From: a virus
Reading direction: 5' to 3' (one strand)
Virus record (IMG/VR): IMGVR_UViG_3300031227_004331
Location: 1-20,965 of that record
DNA: 20,965 bases
Positions 1 through 20,965 of the stretch are shown here, in pieces. The position numbers and the translations under genes were made by a program. Under the pieces are notes generated by a model, which was given only the letters and a program-made list of their open reading frames with translations, searched no databases and was not told the DNA's origin. Within the stretch, counting starts at the first letter, position 1. Each line of letters starts with the position of its first letter.

Positions 1-15
1 ACGCTCTTCCGATCT
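1..15. other. Illumina adapter remnant at contig end
   Basis: The first 15 bases are identical to the 3' end of the Illumina TruSeq read-1 adapter (it ends ACGCTCTTCCGATCT). The read-2 adapter differs at the second base of this stretch (TGCTCTTCCGATCT). The bases are untrimmed library sequence, not phage DNA, and phage sequence starts at about base 16. Confidence 0.93.
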
Positions 16-185
16 GTGGTAAAGGCGGAAATGCTGGATTACCTTCAGAAACAGTAATTAAATCATATGACAGCGTCAGCAAATCATTGAACATCACTGT
101 TAAAGATGGCGTTGCAGAATATGACAAACAACAATCTGAAGACTTAAACGGAATCAAAAAACAATTATCAAAAACCCCTTATTAA
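16..185 (+). CDS. C-terminal fragment of upstream virion gene, possibly portal
   Basis: An open frame is already running when phage sequence begins (first full codon at 18) and ends at TAA 183-185, giving the last 55 residues of a protein. The tail is hydrophilic and Lys/Gln/Asp-rich (SYDSVSKSL, VAEYDKQQSEDL) with no signal or membrane segment. It lies directly upstream of small genes and the scaffold gene, where podovirus-like phages of this capsid type usually carry the portal gene. The portal call is inferred from gene order only; no portal motif falls in this fragment. The gene is truncated by the contig end at an adapter, so the break is technical, not biological. Confidence 0.6.
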
Positions 186-192
186 TTGTTAT

Positions 193-215
193 TGGGCGGA
201 CTAAAAATCCGCCCA
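193..215 (+). terminator. Intergenic hairpin, terminator-like
   Basis: A perfect 8-bp inverted repeat (TGGGCGGA / TCCGCCCA) with a 7-base AT-rich loop lies 7 bases after the stop of the first gene. It is followed by ACTTTTAAA, so the T-run is only four bases. It could be a weak Rho-independent terminator or an mRNA 3'-end stabilising or processing hairpin. The next gene starts only 17 bases downstream with its own AAAGGA ribosome site. Confidence 0.6.
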
Positions 216-231
216 CTTTTAAAGGAATACT

Positions 232-387
232 ATGCCAACAAGCGTACGTAAAGACGGTAAAGCAAAAAAAGTAGTACTTGATCTGCTTGGTGAGCCAGCC
301 GGTGGAAACACTGATTCACAGGGCAAAAAGAAGAAGTTTAAGAAGAGTAAAACTGCTATAAAGGAAGATAGAATTAAGGGTAAATAG
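232..387 (+). CDS. Small basic protein of unknown function (51 aa)
   Basis: ATG at 232 is preceded by AAAGGA (221-226), five bases away, and the frame closes at TAG 385-387. The 51-residue product is strongly basic: it has a KAKKVVLDLLGE segment near the N-terminus, a GKKKKFKKSK cluster around residues 31-40 and a basic C-terminus. There is no hydrophobic segment. It sits between the possible portal gene and the scaffold gene. A small basic protein here could bind nucleic acid or be a minor head protein, but I recognise no family. The clear ribosome site and the tight spacing to its neighbours support a real gene, although it is short. Confidence 0.6.
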   Translation: MPTSVRKDGKAKKVVLDLLGEPAGGNTDSQGKKKKFKKSKTAIKEDRIKGK

Positions 388-406
388 GCTTTAAAAGGAG
401 AGATGA

Positions 407-616
407 ATGCAAAAAGTAGTAGCAAAGAGACCCATGCGCAAACGAGGAAGACCAGCTAAACTAGTATACGTAACAGGGCCTGGAAAATCTGAAAGGCTTC
501 TAATGAAATTCGAAATCATACTCAATGTTTTACTCGACTACATTCATAGAAAAATTGAGACATTTAAAACAAGTCGACTATTTAAGAAGACATATGATCT
601 TGATAAGCCGGAATAA
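407..616 (+). CDS. Small basic protein with AT-hook-like motif (69 aa)
   Basis: The start at ATG 407 is chosen because AAAAGGAG (393-400) lies six bases upstream. Another ATG four bases earlier, in a different frame, gives only a short dead-end peptide. The N-terminus is very basic (about residues 7-18) and contains RKRGRPAK, whose RGRP core is the signature of AT-hook minor-groove binders. The rest (residues 30-69) looks helical and ends DLDKPE. The frame ends three bases before the next start, so the two genes are probably co-translated. DNA binding is inferred from the motif alone; RGRP can occur by chance in basic proteins. The role is unknown. Confidence 0.65.
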   Translation: MQKVVAKRPMRKRGRPAKLVYVTGPGKSERLLMKFEIILNVLLDYIHRKIETFKTSRLFKKTYDLDKPE

Positions 617-619
617 TAC

Positions 620-1120
620 ATGAAAAGCATTATACATGATCGTGATACAGTAGGAACTCTTTCTAGCAAGTTAATAGAAAGCGAGCTAAGAAATCCGTCT
701 CAACATAGCGCAACTGATCAAATGCGCGAACAACTCAAAGACTATGATTACAATATTCATTTATGTATCAAGGACAATAAGAAGAAGTACGTAGGTAATT
801 TTTATGTAATAGTTCTTATTAAAAAAGAAAAGCTTATGCAGAATGTACTGCGTGCGTACTTTCTTGCTCGTGAAACGTGTCCAACTCCTCAGCATGACCA
901 AGTTGTGTATCTATATAATTGCAGAGAAGATAAGATTGATTTCTTATGGGTTGTCCCTAATGCAGATACTGCTAGCTATATGAAATGCAACCCGCATATA
1001 GTTTTACCAAGAGATTATGAATTATTACGTTATGTAGTAGAATTTTATGACGGTTCACTGTTAAGAAAAGCAAAAGAATTAAACGGAGAGAAACGTAATT
1101 CTAGTTTTTTAGAAATCTAA
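620..1120 (+). CDS. Conserved-looking phage protein of unknown function (166 aa)
   Basis: ATG at 620 follows the previous stop by three bases, with a weak GGA upstream. The 166-residue product has a charged N-terminus (1-60), a probable alpha/beta core at about 60-140 rich in aromatic residues (FYVIVLIKK, QVVYLYNC, KIDFLWVVPN) and a basic C-terminus. There is no signal peptide or transmembrane helix. From memory, similar proteins lie between portal and scaffold genes in metagenomic podovirus-like genomes; this cannot be checked here. It probably belongs to the head-assembly operon, since it is followed ten bases later by the scaffold gene, but no biochemical role can be assigned. Confidence 0.75.
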   Translation: MKSIIHDRDTVGTLSSKLIESELRNPSQHSATDQMREQLKDYDYNIHLCIKDNKKKYVGNFYVIVLIKKEKLMQNVLRAYFLARETCPTPQHDQVVYLYNCREDKIDFLWVVPNADTASYMKCNPHIVLPRDYELLRYVVEFYDGSLLRKAKELNGEKRNSSFLEI

Positions 1121-1130
1121 AAGGGAAGAT

Positions 1131-1898
1131 ATGATTGATAACGAATTAAATGACAACGCTGTTGTTGAAGAAACTAGCGTTGACAATACAAGTGTTGAAG
1201 AAACAGTCGTTGAAAACACTGAAGTTGAAGAGCCAGTTCAACCTGTTGAGGCTGAAACTGCAAAAGAAGCTCCTGTAGCAGAAGATGCAGATGAGCGAGC
1301 TAGTAACTTTAGGCAGATGCGTATTGACAAGGCTCGTGCTGAACGTGATCTTGCAGAAACACGCAAACTTTTAAGTGAAATTCAAGAGAGTCGCAAGCCC
1401 GTCCAGCAAAAAGAAGAAGAGTCTACTTTTGGCGACGATGATCTTATCGAAGGAAAACATCTTCGTAGAGAAGTCGAACGCTTAAAGAATAATCAGAAGC
1501 GTTATGAAGAAGTTATGAAGCAACAGGCTGATGAGAATCGCTTACAATCAAAATACAGCGACTTTAAAAAGGTTGTTAATGATGATACTTTAATGCTTCT
1601 TAAAGAAGAAGATCCTGAGTTTGCTGAAACAATTGCAACATCAAGTGCATCTTTATATGCTCGTGGTTCTTCAACTTATAAGCGTATTAAAGACTTGGGT
1701 CTCTATGTTGAAGATAAGCATGAACCAGATCGTTTAAAGGCTCAAGCCAATATGGCAAAGCCTAAGGCGGTTAATAGTATTTCACCGCAACGTGGCAATA
1801 GCCCTTTAGAGCAAGCCAATGCGTTTGCTAATTCGAATTCAAAAGAAGCTCGTGAACAACTATGGCGTGAAGTTCAGGAAGCAACTAAAAATCAATAA
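1131..1898 (+). CDS. Capsid assembly scaffolding protein
   Basis: Scaffolding proteins guide coat subunits into a procapsid and then leave or are degraded. This 255-residue product has the usual composition: a very acidic, low-complexity N-terminus with repeated V-E-E/V-E-N elements (residues 1-58), then a charged helical region with strong coiled-coil character (about 59-135, e.g. RIDKARAERDLAETRKLLSE), another helical stretch, and a basic polar C-terminus (about 200-255) that could contact coat protein. It lies immediately before the major capsid gene, the normal place. Start ATG 1131 has AAGGGAAG just upstream. Scaffolds diverge too fast for motif recognition, so the call rests on composition, length and position. 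Confidence 0.82.
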   Translation: MIDNELNDNAVVEETSVDNTSVEETVVENTEVEEPVQPVEAETAKEAPVAEDADERASNFRQMRIDKARAERDLAETRKLLSEIQESRKPVQQKEEESTFGDDDLIEGKHLRREVERLKNNQKRYEEVMKQQADENRLQSKYSDFKKVVNDDTLMLLKEEDPEFAETIATSSASLYARGSSTYKRIKDLGLYVEDKHEPDRLKAQANMAKPKAVNSISPQRGNSPLEQANAFANSNSKEAREQLWREVQEATKNQ

Positions 1899-1912
1899 GC
1901 CTACGTCACATT

Positions 1913-1958
1913 TGGTCGGTCGTGGATAATATCAGCGCGTCTGCGGCCGGCTATTTTT
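1913..1958 (+). terminator. Rho-independent terminator after scaffold gene
   Basis: Fifteen bases after the scaffold stop, GGTCGGTCG (1914-1922) pairs with CGGCCGGCT (1944-1952), nine pairs including three G-U. An outer T-A pair (1913/1953) extends it, and five T (1954-1958) follow. The 21-base loop can form an inner CAG/CTG stem. The GC-rich stem plus T-run in otherwise AT-rich DNA is a good terminator signature and would separate scaffold from capsid transcription. Confidence 0.65.
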
Positions 1959-1968
1959 ATCTAAATCT

Positions 1969-1998
1969 TTGCAATTATATCTAATCAGTTTGTATACT
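1969..1998 (+). promoter_or_regulatory. Sigma70-like promoter for the major capsid gene
   Basis: TTGCAA (1969-1974, 4 of 6 to TTGACA) and TATACT (1993-1998, 5 of 6 to TATAAT) are separated by 18 bases, just downstream of the terminator. Transcription would begin near 2005, giving a leader of about 140 bases before the capsid ATG at 2145. Promoter-like matches are frequent in AT-rich DNA; the position after a terminator and before the most highly expressed virion gene raises the likelihood. Confidence 0.5.
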
Positions 1999-2084
1999 TA
2001 CGTTGGCTGTATGGAATTCGCCATCCCAAAATCTGACGTATTGGAACTCGTCAATCCACTGACCGTATGAGACTCGTCAACTCG
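1997..2084 (+). repeat. Three degenerate tandem repeats with hairpins in capsid leader
   Basis: Three imperfect copies occupy about 1997-2030, 2033-2058 and 2059-2084. The last two match at 17 of 26 positions, sharing CTGAC and ACTCGTCAA. Each can fold into a small hairpin around a six-base loop ending TCG: ATGG-AATTCG-CCAT (2011-2024), ATTGG-AACTCG-TCAAT (2040-2055) and TGA-GACTCG-TCA (2068-2079). The stems differ while pairing is kept and the loop is conserved. They lie between the predicted promoter and the capsid start, so they would be in the mRNA leader. A role as a protein-binding or regulatory element is inferred. Confidence 0.5.
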
Positions 2085-2112
2085 CAGAGTTGTGATTGCA
2101 TTTTATAATGCA
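2078..2112 (+). promoter_or_regulatory. Two perfect hairpins upstream of capsid start
   Basis: CAACTC-GCA-GAGTTG (2078-2092) and TGCATT-TTAT-AATGCA (2097-2112) are adjacent perfect six-bp stems with 3- and 4-base loops, ending 32 bases before the capsid ATG. The first overlaps the third leader repeat, so the two folds are mutually exclusive alternatives. There is no long T-run after them, so simple termination is unlikely; mRNA stability or translational control is more plausible. Confidence 0.4.
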
Positions 2113-2144
2113 GTTTATGTTGTTTTTAATTGTTAGGGAAACCT

Positions 2145-3095
2145 ATGGCTATTGTAACAACGAGTACCCTCACTTCGCCGGTACAAAGAAGTTTCGATTC
2201 AAAACTTCTTGCTATTCCACACGCTACATTAATTCATAAAACATGCGCTAGTTTGAAAACTATGCCTGCTCGAAGCGGAAAAACTTTGAGAATGCGTCGT
2301 TATGAAAAATTAGGAACCGCAACCGTACCTTTAGGCAATTCAGGGGTAACTCCTCCAGGAAAATCACTTGAAGCAGTCGATATCGACGCAACAATTGGTT
2401 TTTATGGAACATACATCCAAATCAACGAACAAGTAACACTTCAAGCAGCAGATCCAGTATTGAATGAATCTGTTAAATTACTTGGTATCTGTCTTCGCGA
2501 AACAGAAGATTCACTTACACGTGACATGCTTGCAGCAACAGCTTCGGTTGTTCATTGTGGCGGTGGCGTAAATGGTGACAACCCAACCGAACTTACACAC
2601 TCAGACATTGATGGTATTGTTAAGAGTTTATTAAGCTCAAATGCAAATACTATTACTGATTCAATTCAAGGTGAAGATCGATTTGGTACAGCACCCGTCC
2701 GAGACGCTTACATTGCAATGACGCATTCTAATATGGCATCTGAACTTGAAGGTGTAGCTGGCTTCTTACACAAGAACCAATATCCTTCAAATATGGCAGG
2801 TCTCAGATCAGAATGGGGCGCAATCGGTAACGTTAGATTCCTAACATCTTCAGAAGGTTCTATTACTGAACATGGATCGGCTGATGGCGAAGATGTATAC
2901 AATACATTTATTACAGGCCTCGATGCATATGCAATCGTAGATCAAGCTGAATATTCATCGCAATTCATTTACTTGCCTCCATCAATTGCTGGTGGCCCAT
3001 TGGCATTAAATGCTTCTGCTGGTTTCAAAATGGCTACAGCACAAGCCATCTTGAATGATGAGTGGATTCTTAACCTTAAATCTACACTTTCGTAA
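2145..3095 (+). CDS. Major capsid protein, N4-gp56 family
   Basis: This forms the icosahedral shell. The 316-residue product has the layout I associate with the N4 gp56 / P22-coat-like capsid family (HK97 fold): an N-terminal arm with basic residues (about 35-55, ARSGKTLRMRRYEKL), an IDATIGFYGTYIQI strand region near 85-98, a helix with DPVLNESVKLLG, a central domain with AYIAMTHSNMASELE, and a C-terminal strand set (DAYAIVDQAEY) ending in ILNDEWILNLKS. I chose ATG 2145 because AGGGA (2135-2139) is five bases upstream; an in-frame TTG at 2130 would add five residues but has no ribosome site. It follows the scaffold gene, with its own promoter and structured leader. Family call is from recognition, not a search. 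Confidence 0.88.
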   Translation: MAIVTTSTLTSPVQRSFDSKLLAIPHATLIHKTCASLKTMPARSGKTLRMRRYEKLGTATVPLGNSGVTPPGKSLEAVDIDATIGFYGTYIQINEQVTLQAADPVLNESVKLLGICLRETEDSLTRDMLAATASVVHCGGGVNGDNPTELTHSDIDGIVKSLLSSNANTITDSIQGEDRFGTAPVRDAYIAMTHSNMASELEGVAGFLHKNQYPSNMAGLRSEWGAIGNVRFLTSSEGSITEHGSADGEDVYNTFITGLDAYAIVDQAEYSSQFIYLPPSIAGGPLALNASAGFKMATAQAILNDEWILNLKSTLS

Positions 3096-3104
3096 GGAAT
3101 AAAT

Positions 3105-4121
3105 ATGAACGGCACAATTATTCAACAAGGCCATTTTACTTCTGACGGAATTGATAAAATTATCCCTTTACGTTCGGATGTAGACTGGGTTGAAGTATAT
3201 AATTTGACAAACATTGCTGCATCCACACAGTGGGCAGCAACAAAATGGTACTGGCAACGTGAGCTGGCTTCTGATGACTCAATTCTTGAGTTCCATTCAA
3301 CAGCATCTCAAATTGCTTCGTCATCGACATCTGCTATTGGTTTTAACGGAGCAGTCTATAGAGGTATTTCCCTTATAGATTCTTCTGATAAAACTCCTGG
3401 TGGAGCAGTCGCTGTAACAGCTGGAACAAATGCAACTCAACCTGTATATAGCACGGCTGATACAGGAAGATTAGTAGCTGGTAGTATCGTAAGAATTCAA
3501 GGTACAGACCATGACAATCTTAATGGTTTGGATTTTTCAGTTGATACACTTGTTTTGAACACAAGTTTTAGACTTGCAAACACAATAGCTACAGCTCCTG
3601 GAGTTGTCGCTGGCGCAGCTGGAACATATAGATATATCGCTCCAAGTGCAGCAGTTTATGACATGTTCAAACCAAAACAACGCGTAATTGCAAATATTAC
3701 ACAAGCAGCAGCTGGTGTTGTTACAACATTAGTAGATCATTCCTATACAACAGGCCAAAAAGTAAGAATGAACATTCCTACTGGTAATGGCATGGTTGAA
3801 TTAGATGGTCAACTAGTAACAGTAACATACCTAACAGCAGCAACGTTCTCAATAGATGTTGCTACAACTGCTTATACAGCATTTACGTTCCCACTTCCTG
3901 CAGCAATTCCTTACACACCGGCTTCAGTAGTTCCGGTTGGAATTGATATTGCTCTTAACACATCAAGTGATACAGCTTTCGAGAACACAGGCTTTATTGG
4001 CATGGTTCTTGGAACATCAAGTGATGCAGCTATTGCACTTGGAAGTCCTGGTGGAACAGCTAATGATGTAATTAAATGGCGCGCTGGCAAGTCTTTTGCT
4101 ACAGACGTACCAACTCTTTAG
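3105..4121 (+). CDS. Virion-associated protein with two FCCH-like modules
   Basis: This 338-residue protein starts ten bases after the capsid stop, with AAGGA overlapping that stop. The N-terminus (1-75) has strand-like segments (KIIPLRSDVDWVEVYNLT). Residues about 121-158 (GRLVAGSIVRIQG...LDFSVDTL...SFRL) and 208-251 (LVDHSYTTGQKVRM...LDGQLVTVTYL...FSID) are two copies of a small beta module that resembles the 'E1 FCCH-like' repeat often annotated in phage structural proteins. There is no signal or membrane helix. Composition is rich in Ala, Thr and Ser, like decoration or fibre proteins. Position next to the capsid gene suggests a head decoration or head fibre protein, by inference. Confidence 0.75.
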   Translation: MNGTIIQQGHFTSDGIDKIIPLRSDVDWVEVYNLTNIAASTQWAATKWYWQRELASDDSILEFHSTASQIASSSTSAIGFNGAVYRGISLIDSSDKTPGGAVAVTAGTNATQPVYSTADTGRLVAGSIVRIQGTDHDNLNGLDFSVDTLVLNTSFRLANTIATAPGVVAGAAGTYRYIAPSAAVYDMFKPKQRVIANITQAAAGVVTTLVDHSYTTGQKVRMNIPTGNGMVELDGQLVTVTYLTAATFSIDVATTAYTAFTFPLPAAIPYTPASVVPVGIDIALNTSSDTAFENTGFIGMVLGTSSDAAIALGSPGGTANDVIKWRAGKSFATDVPTL

Positions 4122-4129
4122 TAGTATCT

Positions 4130-4155
4130 GGAGAGGGGGAATAATCCTCCTCTCC
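4130..4155 (+). terminator. Strong intergenic hairpin after FCCH-module gene
   Basis: GGAGAGGGGGA (4130-4140) pairs with TCCTCCTCTCC (4145-4155) over 11 bp with one G-U, closed by an ATAA tetraloop, eight bases after the stop. The tail is TTATTAAAA, so it lacks a full T-run. It may attenuate read-through or protect the 3' end of the capsid-region mRNA. The 5' arm also resembles a ribosome site but no start codon follows it. Confidence 0.6.
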
Positions 4156-4172
4156 TTATTAAAAGGAAGATT

Positions 4173-4580
4173 ATGATAGAAACAAATTCAGCTCTCGGCG
4201 CTAAAGCAGCTAAAAAAGCTAAACCAAGTCTTAAATATCTAAGAGATAAAGACAGAGAAAAAGTAACTGGTATTTTTAACTATAAAGAAATGCCAAATGG
4301 CATATTACGCTTTAGTTGCAAGTTTCATAAAGATGATCAAATCGAACGATTCGAGTTTGTAGATGGCGAAACTTATACAATACCACTTGGAGTTGCTAAG
4401 CATTTGAACAGAAATGGTTGGTATCCAGTTAATAAACATGCGGTAGATAAGAATGGACGACCTGTTGCAAGGCTAGGCGCTAAAGTTCGTCGTTTTGGGT
4501 TCCAAAGCTTGGAATTTATCGATCCGGAGGATTTCTCAACAGTAGAGTCAGACCTAGTTACCGTAGAACATATACTGTAA
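4173..4580 (+). CDS. Conserved-looking phage structural protein (135 aa)
   Basis: ATG 4173 follows AAAAGGAAG with about five bases spacing. The 135-residue product has a basic Ala/Lys-rich N-terminus (1-30, GAKAAKKAKPSLKYLRDKDRE), then a compact beta-rich body: RFSCKFHKDDQIERFEF, then GETYTIPLGVAKHLNRNGWY, then a basic segment GAKVRRFGFQSLEF. Acidic residues dominate the C-terminus. I recall homologous proteins between capsid and adaptor genes in metagenomic podovirus-like phages, but no function is established that I can name. A head-completion or capsid-accessory role is inferred from position. The gene is flanked by a strong hairpin upstream and a short leader with an inverted repeat downstream. 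Confidence 0.72.
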   Translation: MIETNSALGAKAAKKAKPSLKYLRDKDREKVTGIFNYKEMPNGILRFSCKFHKDDQIERFEFVDGETYTIPLGVAKHLNRNGWYPVNKHAVDKNGRPVARLGAKVRRFGFQSLEFIDPEDFSTVESDLVTVEHIL

Positions 4581-4599
4581 TTTATAAGCCTACGTATCT

Positions 4600-4614
4600 T
4601 GATACTACGTATCA
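4600..4614 (+). promoter_or_regulatory. Small inverted repeat before adaptor gene
   Basis: TGATAC-TAC-GTATCA (4600-4614) is a perfect six-bp inverted repeat with a three-base loop. A direct repeat CTACGTATC overlaps it (4590-4598 and 4605-4613). It lies between the 135-residue gene and the adaptor start. No T-run follows. It could be a weak mRNA hairpin or operator-like site; no function can be shown. Confidence 0.3.
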
Positions 4615-4641
4615 GGGTAATTAAAATTTAGGAGCATCGAT

Positions 4642-5628
4642 ATGTCAACCGATTCAGACCTTTCTAAGTTAAAAGCAATTAGAACTAAGGTGCGTAGGCT
4701 TACTCGAACTACTTCAGAAGCGCAACTTTCAAATGATGATATTGATAACTATATCAATACATTTGTTCTATACGACTTCCCAGAGTTCTTAGTCGATAAA
4801 AAGATCCCATTCTATCTTATGCCCAACATAGATACATATGGTGATAACACAAAGAATTTAACCGACCCTCTTTATAACTTTAAGAATATTTATACCAATA
4901 TTAAAGCTCCTATATATGTTGGTGGAACTGAAATCTATCTCTCAACAGATAGAAATGAGTTCTTTTCGATGTATCCACAAGTGCTGTTTGAAGAAAATGT
5001 AGGTACCGGAAATAGTATTATTACTGCTTATTCAGGAACACTTTCCCATCATCCAATAAATCCAAAATCAATAAACTTTAGTTCAGTTGATGCAAGTGGA
5101 AATGGAATAGTTATTAAAGACCTTCCACAAGTAGATGGAACATCAGGCGTTATCACCACTACAGGACTTTTAGTCATTCCTGATACAACAACATCGGTTG
5201 GAACAATAAACTATCATACAGGTGTATATACATTCACTTTCCCAGTAGCTCCTGGTACATCCGAACCAATCATTGCTCAAATGTATGCATACGAAGCTGG
5301 AAAACCTAATGCAGTGTTATTTGACAATCAAAAACTTACTTTTAGACCTATTCCTGATAAGACCTACAAAGTTGAACTCAGTGTATTTCAACGTCCAACT
5401 GCTTTAATAGCTGCTGATTCAGTTCCTGAACTTGCTCAGTGGTGGCAATACATTGCGTATGGTGCGGCTAAAAAGATATACGAAGATCGCATGGATACGG
5501 CTTCACTTGAAACACTTATGCCTGAATTTAATAATCAACGCTTATTAGTGCTCGAAAGAAACATTATTCAACGTGGCGGACAACGAACAGCTACGATTTA
5601 CAGCCAGGGAGGAAGTTTTAGATGGTAA
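4642..5628 (+). CDS. Head-to-tail adaptor (connector) protein
   Basis: Adaptor proteins sit under the portal and join it to the tail nozzle. This 328-residue product begins with a helical region (residues 1-60: LKAIRTKVRRLTR, then a DDIDNYINTFVLYDFPEFL segment) that looks like the helical gp6/gp11-type adaptor N-terminus. Then comes a beta-rich central insert (about 85-240, including an ITAYSGTLSHHPI segment), and a helical C-terminus (about 255-328: ELAQWWQYIAYGAAKKIYEDR, then MPEFNNQRLLVLERNIIQR) typical of phage adaptor proteins. The start has TTTAGGAG upstream at good spacing. Order after the capsid genes and before the long nozzle-like gene fits. The assignment is by recognition of layout, not by search. 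Confidence 0.72.
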   Translation: MSTDSDLSKLKAIRTKVRRLTRTTSEAQLSNDDIDNYINTFVLYDFPEFLVDKKIPFYLMPNIDTYGDNTKNLTDPLYNFKNIYTNIKAPIYVGGTEIYLSTDRNEFFSMYPQVLFEENVGTGNSIITAYSGTLSHHPINPKSINFSSVDASGNGIVIKDLPQVDGTSGVITTTGLLVIPDTTTSVGTINYHTGVYTFTFPVAPGTSEPIIAQMYAYEAGKPNAVLFDNQKLTFRPIPDKTYKVELSVFQRPTALIAADSVPELAQWWQYIAYGAAKKIYEDRMDTASLETLMPEFNNQRLLVLERNIIQRGGQRTATIYSQGGSFRW

Positions 5629-14605: not shown

Positions 14606-17020
14606 ATGGCGGTAAATAAGACAAGGAATTTAAAGTATAACGTATTTAATCCTGATCAATTAGGTGGTATTTACCAAGCCCCTATTGTTTCAGAAACACG
14701 TTCACCTGCAACATCAGATTTTGCAGAAATTGGTACTGTATGGATCAATAAGGCTACTGATGATGCTTTTATTATTACTAGCATTGCAGCTGGATCGGCA
14801 ACATGGACTGACCTTGCAGGGATTCCTGCAACAGGCACAGATGGTCAATTATGGATTGGCGCAACAGGAGCACCTGCTTTATGGGCAAATTTAGCTTCTG
14901 CTGGTGGATCTGTAACAATTACAAATACTGCTAATGGTATTAACTTAGAAGCAGCTGGTGTAGCTGCATTAACAGCATTAGACGGTGACGCAGGAACAGC
15001 GGTTCCTTTGGCTGGTGTTATTACAATTGCTGGTGGTACAAATATAACTACTGCTGGTGGTGTAAATACACTTACTATTAATCTTGATGGAAGTCCTAAT
15101 GTAGCGGGCTCATTAACAGCTGGCACAACGATTTCTTCTGGCACTGGAATCACTTCAGTTCTTGGAAATATCGTTGCAAGCGCAGGAAATATTTCTACAA
15201 CTGTTGGCTCAATTGACGCAGCATCAAGTCTTAGTTCAGGAACCTCAATAACTGCAGGAAATACCATCACCGCTACCGCAGGCGACATTACTGCCGCAGC
15301 AGGAGCAATTGAAGCAGCAACTACGATGCTTTGTGGAACTGGACTAACCGTTACCACTGGCGGTGCTCTTGTTTCAGCAGGAGATATTGACGTAACGCTG
15401 GGTGGAGTCACAGTTGCTGCAGGCGATTTAGCTGTAACTTTAGGCTCAATTGACGCAGGCGCGATGATAACCGGAGCGGTTGGATTGACAGCAACCACAG
15501 GCGGCGTATTAATATCGGCTGGTGATTTAGATATTACACTTGGTGATCTTAATCTTGATGCCGGTGATTTTAATATAACAGTTGGTGGAATTGACGTAGC
15601 GGCTCAAGTCGTTGCAGGAACTGGACTGGTTGCTACCACTGGTGGAGCATTAATCTCGGCTGGTGATGTAGATATTACACTTGGTAATCTTAATGTTGAT
15701 GCCGGTAATTTAGATGTAACTATAGGAACAATCGACGCAGGCGCGATGATAACCGGAGCGGTTGGATTGACAGCAACCACAGGTGGTGTATTAGTATCAT
15801 CAGGCGATGTAGATATTACACTTGGAAATCTTACAGTTGACGCTGGTAATATTGAAGCAACTTTAGGAACAATCGACGCGGGTGCTATGATAACCGGAGC
15901 GGTTGGACTAACAGCAACCACAGGCGGTGTATTAGTATCATCAGGCGATGTAGATGTAACTCTTGGAAACCTAACTGTAGATGCAGGTAATATCGAAGCA
16001 ACTGCAGGATCTATCGAAGCTGGTACAACTTTAGTTTCTGGCACTGGACTGACAGTAACCACAGGTGGAGCATTAGTTTCAGCTGGAGATATTGATGTAA
16101 CTTTAGGAAATGTAAACGTTGATGCTGGTAATCTAGACGTAAGCTTGGGAACCATCGATGCAGGCGCACTAATCACTGGAGCGGTTGGATTTACAGCGAC
16201 CACAGGAAATATCACGACGAGCACTGGAAATTTTGTTTCAACTCTTGGATCTTGTACTGTAGCAACTACCCTCGAAGCAGGAACTGGAATAGAAACCGTG
16301 CTTGGCGACATCGTAAGTACGGCCGGAAAAGTCACAGCAAATACTACGATTGAAGCTGGAACTGGACTGATTACAGCCACGGGTGACGTCGTAAGTACCG
16401 CCGGAAAAGTTACCGCGGCAACTACAATGGAAGCTGTCGGAAATATTATCACTAGCACTGGAGATTTTACAAGTACTTTGGGTGGAATTACAGTTGCGAC
16501 ACTAGTTTCAGGTGGAACTGGAGTTACAGCTGTGACAGGTGACCTCACAAGTACTGCAGGAGCATGTTCAGCAGCAACTACGATTACTTCGGGAACAGGC
16601 ATCAGCAGCACTATTGGAGATATTACGGCCGACGCAGGAGACCTAGTAGCGACCCTCGGTGGAGTTACCTGTGCGACTATTGTTCAAGCAGGAACTGGCC
16701 TCGCAACGAGCACGGGTGATATAGTCTGTACGGCCGGAAAAGTCACTGCGGCGACTACCATAGAAGCAGGAACTGGACTGACCACAGCGGCAGGAAATGT
16801 AACAAGTGCGGCGGGTGATGTTGAAGCAGAAACAGCAGCCAAGGGATTCATTTGTGGATCTGGAAGTAAAGTTATTGATGGATCAGGAACACCACACGGT
16901 TCAGTAACAGCACCAAAAGGTTCTTTATATTTAAGAGTTGATGGTTCTGGAGCAGCAGATCGTGCATACATCAACACTGATGGTTCAACAACTTGGACAA
17001 ACTTAGTAACAGCAGCGTAA
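14606..17020 (+). CDS. Long repeat-based tail fibre / adhesin (804 aa)
   Basis: This is probably a trimeric beta-solenoid fibre. Residues 1-75 resemble phage tail-fibre N-termini (LGGIYQAPIV, EIGTVWINKATDDAFIITS), and 126-161 (DAGTAVPLAGVITIAGGTNI onward) recur in the second fibre. From about residue 170 to 735 nearly everything is built from short repeats: seven-residue rungs with pattern G-[DNGT]-[ILV]-x-x-x-x interrupted by six-residue rungs. Six units of exactly 47 residues occupy 252-533, followed by units of 33, 26, 26, 26, 26, 33 and 26. The C-terminus (about 745-804: GSVTAPKGSLYLRVDGSG, then RAYINTDGSTTWT) is a common fibre tip module. No enzyme motif is visible. Receptor-binding or fibre-shaft function is inferred. 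Confidence 0.85.
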   Translation: MAVNKTRNLKYNVFNPDQLGGIYQAPIVSETRSPATSDFAEIGTVWINKATDDAFIITSIAAGSATWTDLAGIPATGTDGQLWIGATGAPALWANLASAGGSVTITNTANGINLEAAGVAALTALDGDAGTAVPLAGVITIAGGTNITTAGGVNTLTINLDGSPNVAGSLTAGTTISSGTGITSVLGNIVASAGNISTTVGSIDAASSLSSGTSITAGNTITATAGDITAAAGAIEAATTMLCGTGLTVTTGGALVSAGDIDVTLGGVTVAAGDLAVTLGSIDAGAMITGAVGLTATTGGVLISAGDLDITLGDLNLDAGDFNITVGGIDVAAQVVAGTGLVATTGGALISAGDVDITLGNLNVDAGNLDVTIGTIDAGAMITGAVGLTATTGGVLVSSGDVDITLGNLTVDAGNIEATLGTIDAGAMITGAVGLTATTGGVLVSSGDVDVTLGNLTVDAGNIEATAGSIEAGTTLVSGTGLTVTTGGALVSAGDIDVTLGNVNVDAGNLDVSLGTIDAGALITGAVGFTATTGNITTSTGNFVSTLGSCTVATTLEAGTGIETVLGDIVSTAGKVTANTTIEAGTGLITATGDVVSTAGKVTAATTMEAVGNIITSTGDFTSTLGGITVATLVSGGTGVTAVTGDLTSTAGACSAATTITSGTGISSTIGDITADAGDLVATLGGVTCATIVQAGTGLATSTGDIVCTAGKVTAATTIEAGTGLTTAAGNVTSAAGDVEAETAAKGFICGSGSKVIDGSGTPHGSVTAPKGSLYLRVDGSGAADRAYINTDGSTTWTNLVTAA
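15359..16204 (+). repeat. Six 141-bp tandem units inside the fibre gene
   Basis: Copies of the same coding unit start at 15359, 15500, 15641, 15782, 15923 and 16064, all exactly 141 bases (47 codons) apart. Each begins GG[AV]L[VI]S and contains four heptads followed by a 19-residue closing block. The 50 bases at 15452-15501 are identical to 15734-15783, two units away, whereas other copies differ at many synonymous positions, so the copies have mixed ages. Confidence 0.92.
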
Positions 17021-18511: not shown

Positions 18512-20965
18512 ATGAGTCAAGCGGGTCAATTTTACCAAAAGACATTAGTATCAACTTTAACCGGTGATACGGGCGGAGCGGTAGGGCCCGTAGCTGGCAA
18601 TATCGACTTAGTAGGTGGAGCTGGTATAGCAGTTGATGGATTTCCAGGAATTAGCACATTAACTATTACTGCTAGTGGAATGGCATCAAGTTTTGTAACT
18701 GACGCTGGGACGGCAACTCCAGTTGCTGGTGCTATTAATGTACTTGGTGGATCTAATATACATTCAAGTGGTGCTGGAAATACAATAACACTTGATCTAG
18801 ATGATGATGTGACAATCTCAGGACAATTAGAAGCAAATGAAATCGAATCTATTACATACATTAACGCGCTTACTTCCATTAGCGCACTCACTGGAGATAT
18901 TACTGCACCTCACGGAGATATCTCTGCTGGTGGCCAAATGGTTTCTACAGGGGATATTACGTCTGTAAGTGGTGATATTACAGCCCTAGCTGGAAATCTT
19001 ACCATTGTGGGAACTGCATCAGTATCTGGAAACATTACTTCTTCCGCAGGAAATGTAATATCACAAAATGATGTCATCTCTAATACTGGAGATATTTATA
19101 CATCATTGGGGTCAATCATTTCAGCAGCTACGATTACATCTGCAACTACCATAACCAGTACTGCAGGGGATATCGTTGCAGCTGGTGGAAATATGATTGC
19201 GTCAGGCACTATTACTGGTATGTCTGGACTACGAGCTACGGCTGGTGGTGTAATTGTATCAGCGGGAGATGTTACCGTTACCCTAGGGGACATAGAAACT
19301 TTAGCTGGATCTATTGATTCGGCATCTACTATTTCAGCAGTTGGAAATATTACATCTTCTGGTGGAGACATTCAAACTACTGTAGGTGATTTAATATCTG
19401 GTAATGACATTACAGCTACAAATGATATTAGCACTACAGCTGGTACGATTTCTTCATTTGGAACTATTACAAGTACTAACGGAAACATCGAAACCACAAC
19501 TGGATCCATTGATTCCGGATCCACAATTTCTGCAGTTGGAGACATCACAAGCTCCACTGGAGATATCGTATCGACGAATGGTGATCTCCGAGCTCCCAAC
19601 GGAACGCTATTCGTCAATACGTTCTCAGCAACCGGCGACATTATTTCTAGTGGTGGAGACTTAATTGCCACTGTTGGAGATGTTAAGGCTGGAAATAAAT
19701 TATATTCTGGAGCTGGTCTCGAAGTTACGACAGGAAATATTGATGTATTGACAGGTCGAATCAATGTTAATGTTGGTGGAATAGAAGTTAATCAAAACAT
19801 TGTATCTTTAAATGGTAGTATATTTGCTACAAATGGCGATATAACTGCTGGATATTCAATAGTTGCTGGAAGTGATATCACTTCTGTAATTGGCGATATA
19901 ACTGCTAGCGCAGGAGATATTACTGCAAAATATGATGTTGAATCTATTAGTGGAAATATCAATGCATTAGCTGGAAATATTACAACATCTGTTGGATTTA
20001 TACGGTCAGCTGGAGCTCTTATAGCAGATGTTAATCTGCAAGCAACTGGAACTGTTCAGTTTACTGATATTACAGATGGCTATCTTAAAGCAGATGCGAC
20101 TGGTTTTGTATCTTCAGTTGATTTCGATCAAGACAATATGCTTTATGTTGGTAAACATGGTGATGATGCTAATAGTGGATTATGTCCATCAGAAGCTAAG
20201 TTAACCATTCAAGCAGCAGTTACTGCTGCCGCAGCCGGTGATACAATTATTGTTTATCCTGGAACATACGAAGAAACAATAACTCATGCTGCAAGCAATG
20301 TAACTATCTTAGGGCAAGGTAAACCAAGTAATTGTATTATTACTCAGGCAGATGCTAATGTTATTGACTTCGCAACATTTTCTGGAATCCAATATAAATT
20401 CTTTGGAATTAGTTGTACGGCAGCAACAACAGCTATATGGACAGTTGAGGGTTCTACCGGTTCATGCTCATTTAAAGAATGTCAATTATCTATGACTTCT
20501 GCTGCTGCTATAGCTGCTGTAGCGCAACCTGGCGTTGGTAGGGTAACTGGAGCTGGAACGTTATCTGTTATTCTCGGAAAAGCATATTACTATCATACCG
20601 GCAATGGTGGTGCAACTGCCAATAAAGGAGCATTTGCAACTGCAGATGGTGGCCTTGTTTCATTAAGCCTTATTGAAGATTTAACAGTTTCTAATAGTGG
20701 TACAGCTTTGGTAAGTGGTATAGGTATCGATACAGCATCTACTGGTAATATTAATATTCATGATTGTATTATTGATGTTACTGATCCAAATGCTACAATC
20801 GTGGTTGGTTTAGCATATCTTGGTGGTACGGGAACAGGTAGTGAGTTTTATAGAAATACAATCCATGTACAAGCAACCAACAATACTGCGTACGGTTTCT
20901 TTAGTGCTGATACAGCTTCAACAAGTAGGTTCTTTTTTAATCATGTTCATGTAGAAGACGCAGCT
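18512..20965 (+). CDS. Second repeat fibre with pectin-lyase-like spike domain (partial)
   Basis: The frame starts at ATG 18512 (TAGGAG five bases upstream), runs 818 codons and is still open at the right end. Residues 61-97 (FVTDAGTATPVAGAINVLGG and onward) match the module at 126-161 of the first fibre. Residues about 128-510 are again heptad/hexad rungs (GDITSVS, GDITALA, GNLTIVG and so on), more variable than in the first fibre. From about 545 the protein changes: YVGKHGDDANSG, then TIQAAVTAAAAGDTIIVYPG and TYEETIT look like the opening of a right-handed parallel beta-helix of the pectate-lyase / DUF1565 type. This is the plan of a tailspike that binds or cuts surface glycans. Catalytic residues cannot be identified in the portion seen. 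Confidence 0.82.
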   Translation, partial: MSQAGQFYQKTLVSTLTGDTGGAVGPVAGNIDLVGGAGIAVDGFPGISTLTITASGMASSFVTDAGTATPVAGAINVLGGSNIHSSGAGNTITLDLDDDVTISGQLEANEIESITYINALTSISALTGDITAPHGDISAGGQMVSTGDITSVSGDITALAGNLTIVGTASVSGNITSSAGNVISQNDVISNTGDIYTSLGSIISAATITSATTITSTAGDIVAAGGNMIASGTITGMSGLRATAGGVIVSAGDVTVTLGDIETLAGSIDSASTISAVGNITSSGGDIQTTVGDLISGNDITATNDISTTAGTISSFGTITSTNGNIETTTGSIDSGSTISAVGDITSSTGDIVSTNGDLRAPNGTLFVNTFSATGDIISSGGDLIATVGDVKAGNKLYSGAGLEVTTGNIDVLTGRINVNVGGIEVNQNIVSLNGSIFATNGDITAGYSIVAGSDITSVIGDITASAGDITAKYDVESISGNINALAGNITTSVGFIRSAGALIADVNLQATGTVQFTDITDGYLKADATGFVSSVDFDQDNMLYVGKHGDDANSGLCPSEAKLTIQAAVTAAAAGDTIIVYPGTYEETITHAASNVTILGQGKPSNCIITQADANVIDFATFSGIQYKFFGISCTAATTAIWTVEGSTGSCSFKECQLSMTSAAAIAAVAQPGVGRVTGAGTLSVILGKAYYYHTGNGGATANKGAFATADGGLVSLSLIEDLTVSNSGTALVSGIGIDTASTGNINIHDCIIDVTDPNATIVVGLAYLGGTGTGSEFYRNTIHVQATNNTAYGFFSADTASTSRFFFNHVHVEDAA

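Follow-up and report, generated by a model that had tools for sequence, protein, structure and literature searches.

Tailed phages need hundreds of capsid subunits and far fewer scaffold proteins, and make both from neighbouring genes; to our knowledge, how the ratio of capsid to scaffold is set is mostly unknown outside model phages. The locus considered here raises this question through a long capsid leader. In the window (the whole of a 20,965-base IMG/VR virus record), a gap of 246 bases separates an open reading frame at 1131-1898 from the start of the major capsid gene at 2145, and the gap contains three degenerate tandem repeats. What are these repeats, how widely are they shared, and what might they do for the capsid message?

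The capsid leader and its repeats

The repeat unit is about 25 nt long, roughly GACG-UA(A)-GGG-AUU-CGUC-AA-CCC, and fits an H-type pseudoknot with two stems (S1 and S2) and three loops (L1 to L3), in the order S1 5′ strand, L1, S2 5′ strand, L2, S1 3′ strand, L3, S2 3′ strand. With the repeats read in this way, the features of the locus are:

1131-1898: upstream open reading frame, probable scaffold gene, judged by position only
1913-1953, + strand: terminator-like hairpin 3′ of this frame, 15 bp and then TATTTTTAT
1969-1998, + strand: sigma-70-like promoter, −35 TTGCAA at 1969-1974 and −10 TATACT at 1993-1998
2004-2028, + strand: pseudoknot 1; S1 GGC(U)G 2005-2009 with CGCC 2019-2022, outer pair 2004-2023; S2 UGG 2012-2014 with CCA 2026-2028, or GGA with UCC
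2034-2058, + strand: pseudoknot 2; S1 GACG 2035-2038 with CGUC 2049-2052, outer pair 2034-2053; S2 UGGA 2042-2045 with UCCA 2055-2058
2060-2084, + strand: pseudoknot 3; S1 GAC(C)G 2061-2065 with CGUC 2075-2078, outer pair 2060-2079; S2 GAG 2069-2071 with CUC 2081-2083
2078-2092, + strand: hairpin CAACUC-GCA-GAGUUG, which would disrupt pseudoknot 3; a possible switch
about 2096-2112, + strand: hairpin UGCAUU..AAUGCA, predicted by folding, between the array and the ribosome-binding site
2135-2144, + strand: Shine-Dalgarno AGG within AGG-GAAA-CCU
2145-3095, + strand: major capsid gene (PHROG 1357 major head protein, E = 1.8e-35)

The upstream frame had no PHROG match; the capsid has distant plasmid-borne homologues annotated as N4-gp56 family. 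The region 1899-1990, which covers the terminator-like hairpin, folds with z = −2.04 (6 of 200 shuffles were equally stable). The predicted transcription start is near 2005, the −10 box ending at 1998 and the first copy beginning at 2004; taken alone, this promoter is not significant (12 promoter-like sites in 1-5000, against 14.4 expected). No terminator was found 3′ of the array in the window. Hairpins resembling the one at 2096-2112 were seen by eye in near relatives. At the ends of the record, positions 2-15 resemble the end of an Illumina adapter, presumably a contig-end artefact, and two long open reading frames (14606-17020 and 18512-20965) consist of recurring TATGGALVSAGDVDITLGNL-like units and probably represent tail or fibre repeats.

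The original prediction gave the sequence of 1997-2084 correctly, and the three degenerate tandem copies that it described are present, at 2004-2028, 2034-2058, and 2060-2084. Each was thought to fold as a simple hairpin, with a conserved six-base loop ending in TCG on a stem of variable sequence. Three such loops, closed by three-pair helices, do occur in the leader, and three such helices (G-U pairs allowed) were reached by 27 of 20,000 mononucleotide shuffles, in a test defined after the finding had been seen; on folding, they do not behave as simple hairpins. The copies have no excess stability when folded in this way (z = −0.13, −0.65, and +0.82; +0.74 for the whole stretch), and in minimum-energy folds the proposed hairpin appears at copy 1 only. 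What was taken for a conserved TCG loop is really the end of L2 and the start of the S1 3′ strand (AACTCG TCAA comprises L2, the S1 3′ strand, and L3), and the variable stems are a mixture of pieces from both real stems. Single-strand folding, together with pseudoknot pairing in relatives, rules out the simple-hairpin reading. The broader claim, that the capsid leader holds a repeated RNA element of conserved structure, is supported by tests in relatives; loss of both the repeats and stem covariation from relatives with the capsid gene had been named as what would count against it, and most relatives that have a leader keep both.

Pairing in related leaders

A capsid-protein scan of viral contigs found 312 relatives, and loci were taken from the best 80 of these 312. 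The two stems were tested separately. For S2, only S1, L1, and one T served to detect copies in the 61 leaders used, which share at most 60% of 9-mers; this gave 160 copies, spread over 58 leaders. At least three S2 pairs could form in 126 of the 160, whereas exchanging downstream letters among copies gave 61.8 on average and at most 82 over 1000 permutations, plainly chance sites being kept in the count. For S1, with YTCGYY alone as anchor in 95 leaders sharing at most 40% of 9-mers, the stem was fully paired at 158 of 193 sites (permuted mean 68.4, maximum 85 in 300). In a second phage group with a different head protein (L292-L312, described below), at least four S2 pairs were found in 21 of 53 S1-detected copies (permuted mean 4.1, maximum 10 in 1000); related leaders are non-independent events, so none of these permutation figures is an exact probability. 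Chance is ruled out for the family by the stem permutation tests in both phage groups. In the window leader, a pseudoknot-motif scanner finds three copies, and none of 2,000 mononucleotide-shuffled leaders had two or more.

A covariance model built from 25 copies (S1 only, the window's own excluded) ranks the three window copies first to third across the 20,965 bases. Copy 2 is the only significant one (26.3 bits, E = 1.1e-4); copies 1 and 3 score 10.1 bits (E = 1.4 each), against a background of 9.9 bits. A 24-nt alignment, A3 (26 of the 53 copies of its length class), gives high scores that are inflated because the scanner choosing its copies already demanded most of the pairs; the evidence for pairing rests on the independent S2, S1, and second-group tests, and not on A3.

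Within this architecture, S1 has about 4-5 bp, and S2 has 3-6 bp and is freely variable in sequence. Among 242 loosely defined copies, the S1 pairings are GACG/CGUC (72), GGCG/CGCC (42), AGCG/CGCU (18), UGCG/CGCA (8), AACG/CGUU (5), GGUG/CACC (4), GACC/GGUC (3), and others. The loops are less free: in the 190 high-confidence copies, L1 opens with UA (155) or CA (35); L2, of 2-3 nt, ends in CU or UU in 162 (its final U being so by construction); and L3, of 1-2 nt, usually has A first (142). A leader holds one to seven loosely defined copies, most often three. In a wobble-strand comparison meant to tell RNA from DNA, S1 has 19 G-U against 11 A-C, and the outer S2 pair 19 G-U against 22 A-C. It is well supported that the RNA element exists and is under selection, and the keeping of pairing while letters change points to an undescribed control element on a heavily used capsid message.

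An L3 of 1-2 nt spanning a stem of 4-5 bp is tight for a classic coaxial pseudoknot; S1 and S2 might therefore alternate instead of coexisting. The most divergent arrays (L047 and L055) have S1 GGACC/GGUCC or AGACC/GGUCU, S2 UUAGG/CCUAA, and longer loops. In L130 and L138, some copies have an extra small hairpin within a pseudoknot loop.

Distribution among phages

The window's capsid family gave 95 non-redundant leaders: two or more high-confidence copies are present in 62, a single one in 12, and none in 21. Where the gap before the capsid gene is at least 100 nt (75 leaders), 55 have two or more, 10 have one, and 10 have none; where it is under 60 nt (12 leaders), eight are without copies. 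The element is mostly absent where no leader exists. Several of the long-gap leaders scored as empty hold longer-looped variants by eye, and one (L068) holds an intron. Clusters of at least two motif copies were found 54 times in capsid leaders and nowhere else in 764,187 bases (80 loci, both strands).

Viral contigs were also scanned without regard to genes, using DNA patterns of two S1 copies; many of the contigs found are the same as those in the capsid-protein scan. The pattern GACGTA gave at least 120 stretches, and 52 of the 120 listed have at least two motif copies (the 68 with fewer than two strict copies were left out). Among the matches listed, 47 of these 52 arrays have a capsid of the window's family (family 1) downstream on the same strand. 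The other five comprise two that end at the capsid start (L230 and L287), one that precedes a different major head protein (L187), one that precedes a 499-aa protein (L244), and L213. The patterns GGCGTA and GACGCAA gave at least 120 stretches and 21 stretches, respectively; 140 loci were examined, 115 with fewer than two strict copies were left out, and 22 of the remaining 25, among the matches listed, have a family-1 or family-2 capsid downstream. L213, L356 (inside an open frame), and L414 pass the copy count yet look like chance, while L339, from a 104-kb phage, has three clear copies between a scaffold-like open reading frame and an intron-riddled gene.

No arrays were found in eight named or faecal relatives examined (of 30 matches): Bacillus phage Pascal, Pseudoalteromonas phage vB_Pun_Y3, Pseudomonas phage Rollin, Stenotrophomonas phage StenR_269, Paenibacillus phage API480, a Manatee Spring podovirus, and two faecal phages whose records are without annotation. 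In six of the eight, the annotated capsid gene begins 4-90 nt after the preceding annotated gene. Arthrobacter phage Brad, with a gap of 27 nt, had no covariance-model match.

Insertions resembling group I or group II introns lie in or beside the capsid gene in L061, L064, L068, L093, L095, L180, L194, L222, L299, L350, and L464, some carrying homing-endonuclease-like open reading frames. The leader array is intact ahead of the insertion in L180, L194, L222, and L350.

The protein downstream of the L187 array matches the PHROG 14242 major head protein (E = 5.9e-22) and has no BLASTP similarity to the window capsid. Its relatives form the second phage group: 22 were found and 21 examined, with arrays visible in 12 (L292, L293, L295-L298, L301, L303, and L307-L310) and weaker signs in L300; the remaining loci are without a leader, have an intron, or show no array by eye. 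In this group the array starts soon 3′ of the scaffold stop, with no promoter evident by eye, and some loci have an extra small open reading frame between array and head gene. In a third group (L314-L317), the copies upstream of the head-position protein (AlphaFold mean pLDDT 27.6) are fewer and have diverged further. The element is common to at least two head-protein families without detectable sequence similarity.

As to hosts, the capsid was found at seven loci in GTDB genomes, three of them in chlamydial MAGs. In the phylum of a Simkaniaceae MAG it occurs in 8 of 232 genomes (34-64% best identity, the centre genome included), and in the class of a Methylococcaceae MAG in 4 of 369 (three at 23-29%, the fourth being the centre genome). 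Two contigs from the chlamydial phylum were checked; both are of phage size (39,969 and 36,464 bases) and may therefore have been binned wrongly. An array is present on one (G512), and the strict scan found none at the other capsid loci of that phylum. Capsid relatives are commoner in the chlamydial MAGs than in the gammaproteobacterial sample (L090, L093, L095, and L473/L480). These records hint at tailed phages of environmental chlamydiae, as a lead rather than a result.

Possible roles and known systems

The position of the array in the mRNA was examined in the 62 leaders that hold two or more high-confidence copies. The 60 nt upstream reach a promoter score of 9 or higher in 24 of them (12.6% of shuffles do so), and in 20 of these 24 the first copy begins 5-12 nt 3′ of the −10 box, a spacing at which the first pseudoknot would coincide with the expected start of transcription. 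Between the last copy and the ATG lie 3 to 125 nt (median 42.5 nt). In 10 of the 62 leaders, the last copy is followed by a hairpin (5 bp or more) able to compete with it, compared with 4 of 116 inner copies; in 9 of 62, a CCU beside the ATG could pair with the Shine-Dalgarno AGG. The window leader has both; judged by sequence, the nearest relatives seem to add a hairpin competing with the last pseudoknot.

Our preferred explanation, offered tentatively and with somewhat less than even confidence, is that the array acts in cis at the 5′ end to protect or insulate the capsid mRNA. The arrays are observed to be paired, conserved, tandem, and beside head genes in two families; from this we infer action at the RNA level, a 5′-terminal block, and its mechanism. 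A transcript from the promoter at 1969-1998 would start at pseudoknot 1, and the array would form a compact block, shielding the capsid message from 5′-end-dependent or 5′-to-3′ nucleases and separating it from the scaffold mRNA. Capsid, required in far larger amounts, would then be translated from a message that persists. In the second group, once the upstream part of a longer transcript had decayed or been cleaved off, the block would set the 5′ end of the capsid portion. Such a block fits with a start at +1, variable copy number, free S2 letters, and use by unrelated capsids, and a first pseudoknot at the predicted start is as expected of a 5′-terminal structure. The L350 array, which persists before an intron-split capsid gene, also counts in its favour. 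As precedents, in the accessible portions of the sources, a viral pseudoknotted RNA is reported to stop bacterial RNase J1 in vitro (PMC5760640), and 5′ roadblocks to stabilise mRNA in Bacillus (PMC3997798). Against it, 10 of the 75 leaders with gaps of at least 100 nt are without a high-confidence copy, and 5′-terminal placement is not universal, given that only 24 of 62 leaders reach the promoter score and that no promoter is evident by eye in the second group.

The conserved loop letters (UA/CA, YU, and A) could equally be read as protein contacts, and the main rival, which we consider doubtful, builds on this. Here the capsid, scaffold, or another phage protein would bind the pseudoknots and repress capsid translation when in excess, several sites giving cooperativity, much as T4 gp32 acts on its own leader (PMC3014915, to the extent that the source was available). 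Such an autogenous operator fits the unpaired letters conserved in L1, L2, and L3, the presence of two to six copies upstream of the ribosome-binding site, and the competing hairpin and Shine-Dalgarno-hiding stem of the nearest relatives. However, the array precedes two head-protein families without BLASTP similarity, which weakens the case for binding by the virion protein itself; and family 1 mostly loses the array where scaffold closely precedes capsid, though the capsid protein stays, with a similar loss seen by eye in the second group.

An unlikely alternative is a translation element, which would keep the ribosome-binding site open, recruit a host factor (e.g., ribosomal protein S1), or uncouple capsid from scaffold translation. 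The leader position, the spacing from array to start, and the intercistronic location in the second group are all compatible with it, but that spacing ranges from 3 to 125 nt, and two to six copies seem excessive for a spacer.

It is still less probable that the array is a bistable switch or attenuator, in which S1, S2, and the downstream hairpin (the last in near relatives) alternate, with folding order or a ligand deciding between them. The S1 and S2 strands do interleave, and the competing hairpin is commoner after last copies than after inner ones (10 of 62 and 4 of 116, as above), but most leaders are without it, and the window has no terminator 3′ of the array.

We think it very improbable that the array is an RNA decoy, a pseudo-ToxI that would imitate type III antitoxin arrays and, transcribed from a strong late promoter, neutralise a host endoribonuclease. 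Pseudoknots repeated in tandem make up the type III antitoxins (PMC12373285), and a phage with pseudo-ToxI repeats escapes ToxIN (PMC3475682), according to the parts of these papers that could be consulted; but the copies here vary in S2 and in length where antitoxin repeats are near identical, they lie almost always in head-gene leaders, and eight window proteins gave no convincing PADLOC match. Least probable of all is a DNA-level element (a repeated binding site or a single-stranded DNA structure, as suggested for STAXI): wobble-pair strand asymmetry is not evident, in its favour, but the array nearly always adjoins a head gene in that gene's orientation, begins, in leaders with a recognisable promoter, where transcription is predicted to start, and changes its letters while pairing stays.

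The element is widespread in environmental phages and short enough for reporter testing. If the array blocks nucleases, it would offer biotechnology a minimal natural mRNA stabiliser; if it serves as an operator, it would represent a new assembly-feedback circuit.

Among known RNAs, no accepted match to an Rfam family was found in the window leader or in six other loci. A match of the window leader to a nematode snoRNA (E = 3.1), and matches below gathering to mir-26 and ST7-OT3_4 in other loci, were taken as chance. No description of tandem pseudoknots in phage capsid leaders was found in the literature within reach, though an earlier one may exist in subscription journals or in an extensive 2017 survey of bacterial RNA candidates.

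The STAXI RNA motif (RF01728) consists of two or three tandem copies of a pseudoknot, its function given as unknown in the available part of PMC2864571. The tandem repeated pseudoknot is common to both, but STAXI is described there near ssb, topoisomerase, antirestriction, and integrase genes in Enterobacteriales, and the present arrays lie in capsid leaders. Its model had no match in the window at E ≤ 10, nor in L062, L047, L292, L309, L314, or L080 at E ≤ 1. STAXI is set apart by this model and by its description only, and the model likewise gave no match over the cut-off in control genomes. STAXI examples were looked for in K-12 CP4-57, P4, P1, ColIb-P9, 369 genomes of one class, and IMG/VR, and none was found.

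Type III antitoxin RNAs (ToxI and others) and phage pseudo-ToxI are likewise arrays of small tandem pseudoknots, one of them phage-made. As far as the sources at hand describe them, the antitoxins have near-identical repeats of 34-50 nt, followed by a terminator and a toxin gene, whereas the repeats here are degenerate, of about 25 nt, and the next gene encodes a major head protein. A type III toxin-antitoxin locus was rejected, PADLOC finding no toxin among eight window proteins. In the T4 gene 32 leader, a pseudoknot lies 67 nt upstream of the start codon (PMC3014915, in the part available); like those considered here, it is in a phage mRNA leader upstream of the ribosome-binding site, but it is single rather than an array, belongs to a DNA-binding-protein gene, and is recognised by gp32.

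Flavivirus xrRNAs, finally, can be tandem and are pseudoknotted, and are described in the accessible text of PMC5760640 as 5′-to-3′ nuclease blocks that stop RNase J1 in vitro as well. They differ in having a larger, three-way-junction fold and in lying in the 3′ UTR of RNA viruses, and what is suggestive in likening the array to an exoribonuclease-resistant RNA is only its 5′-terminal position. It is conceivable, if rather doubtful, that the arrays are a phage counterpart of tandem exoribonuclease-resistant RNAs: two to six pseudoknots of about 25 nt that would stop 5′-end-dependent decay at the 5′ border of the capsid mRNA, so that capsid outlasts scaffold mRNA, and that might form a module taken up by tailed-phage lineages unrelated to one another, in almost every case for the head gene.
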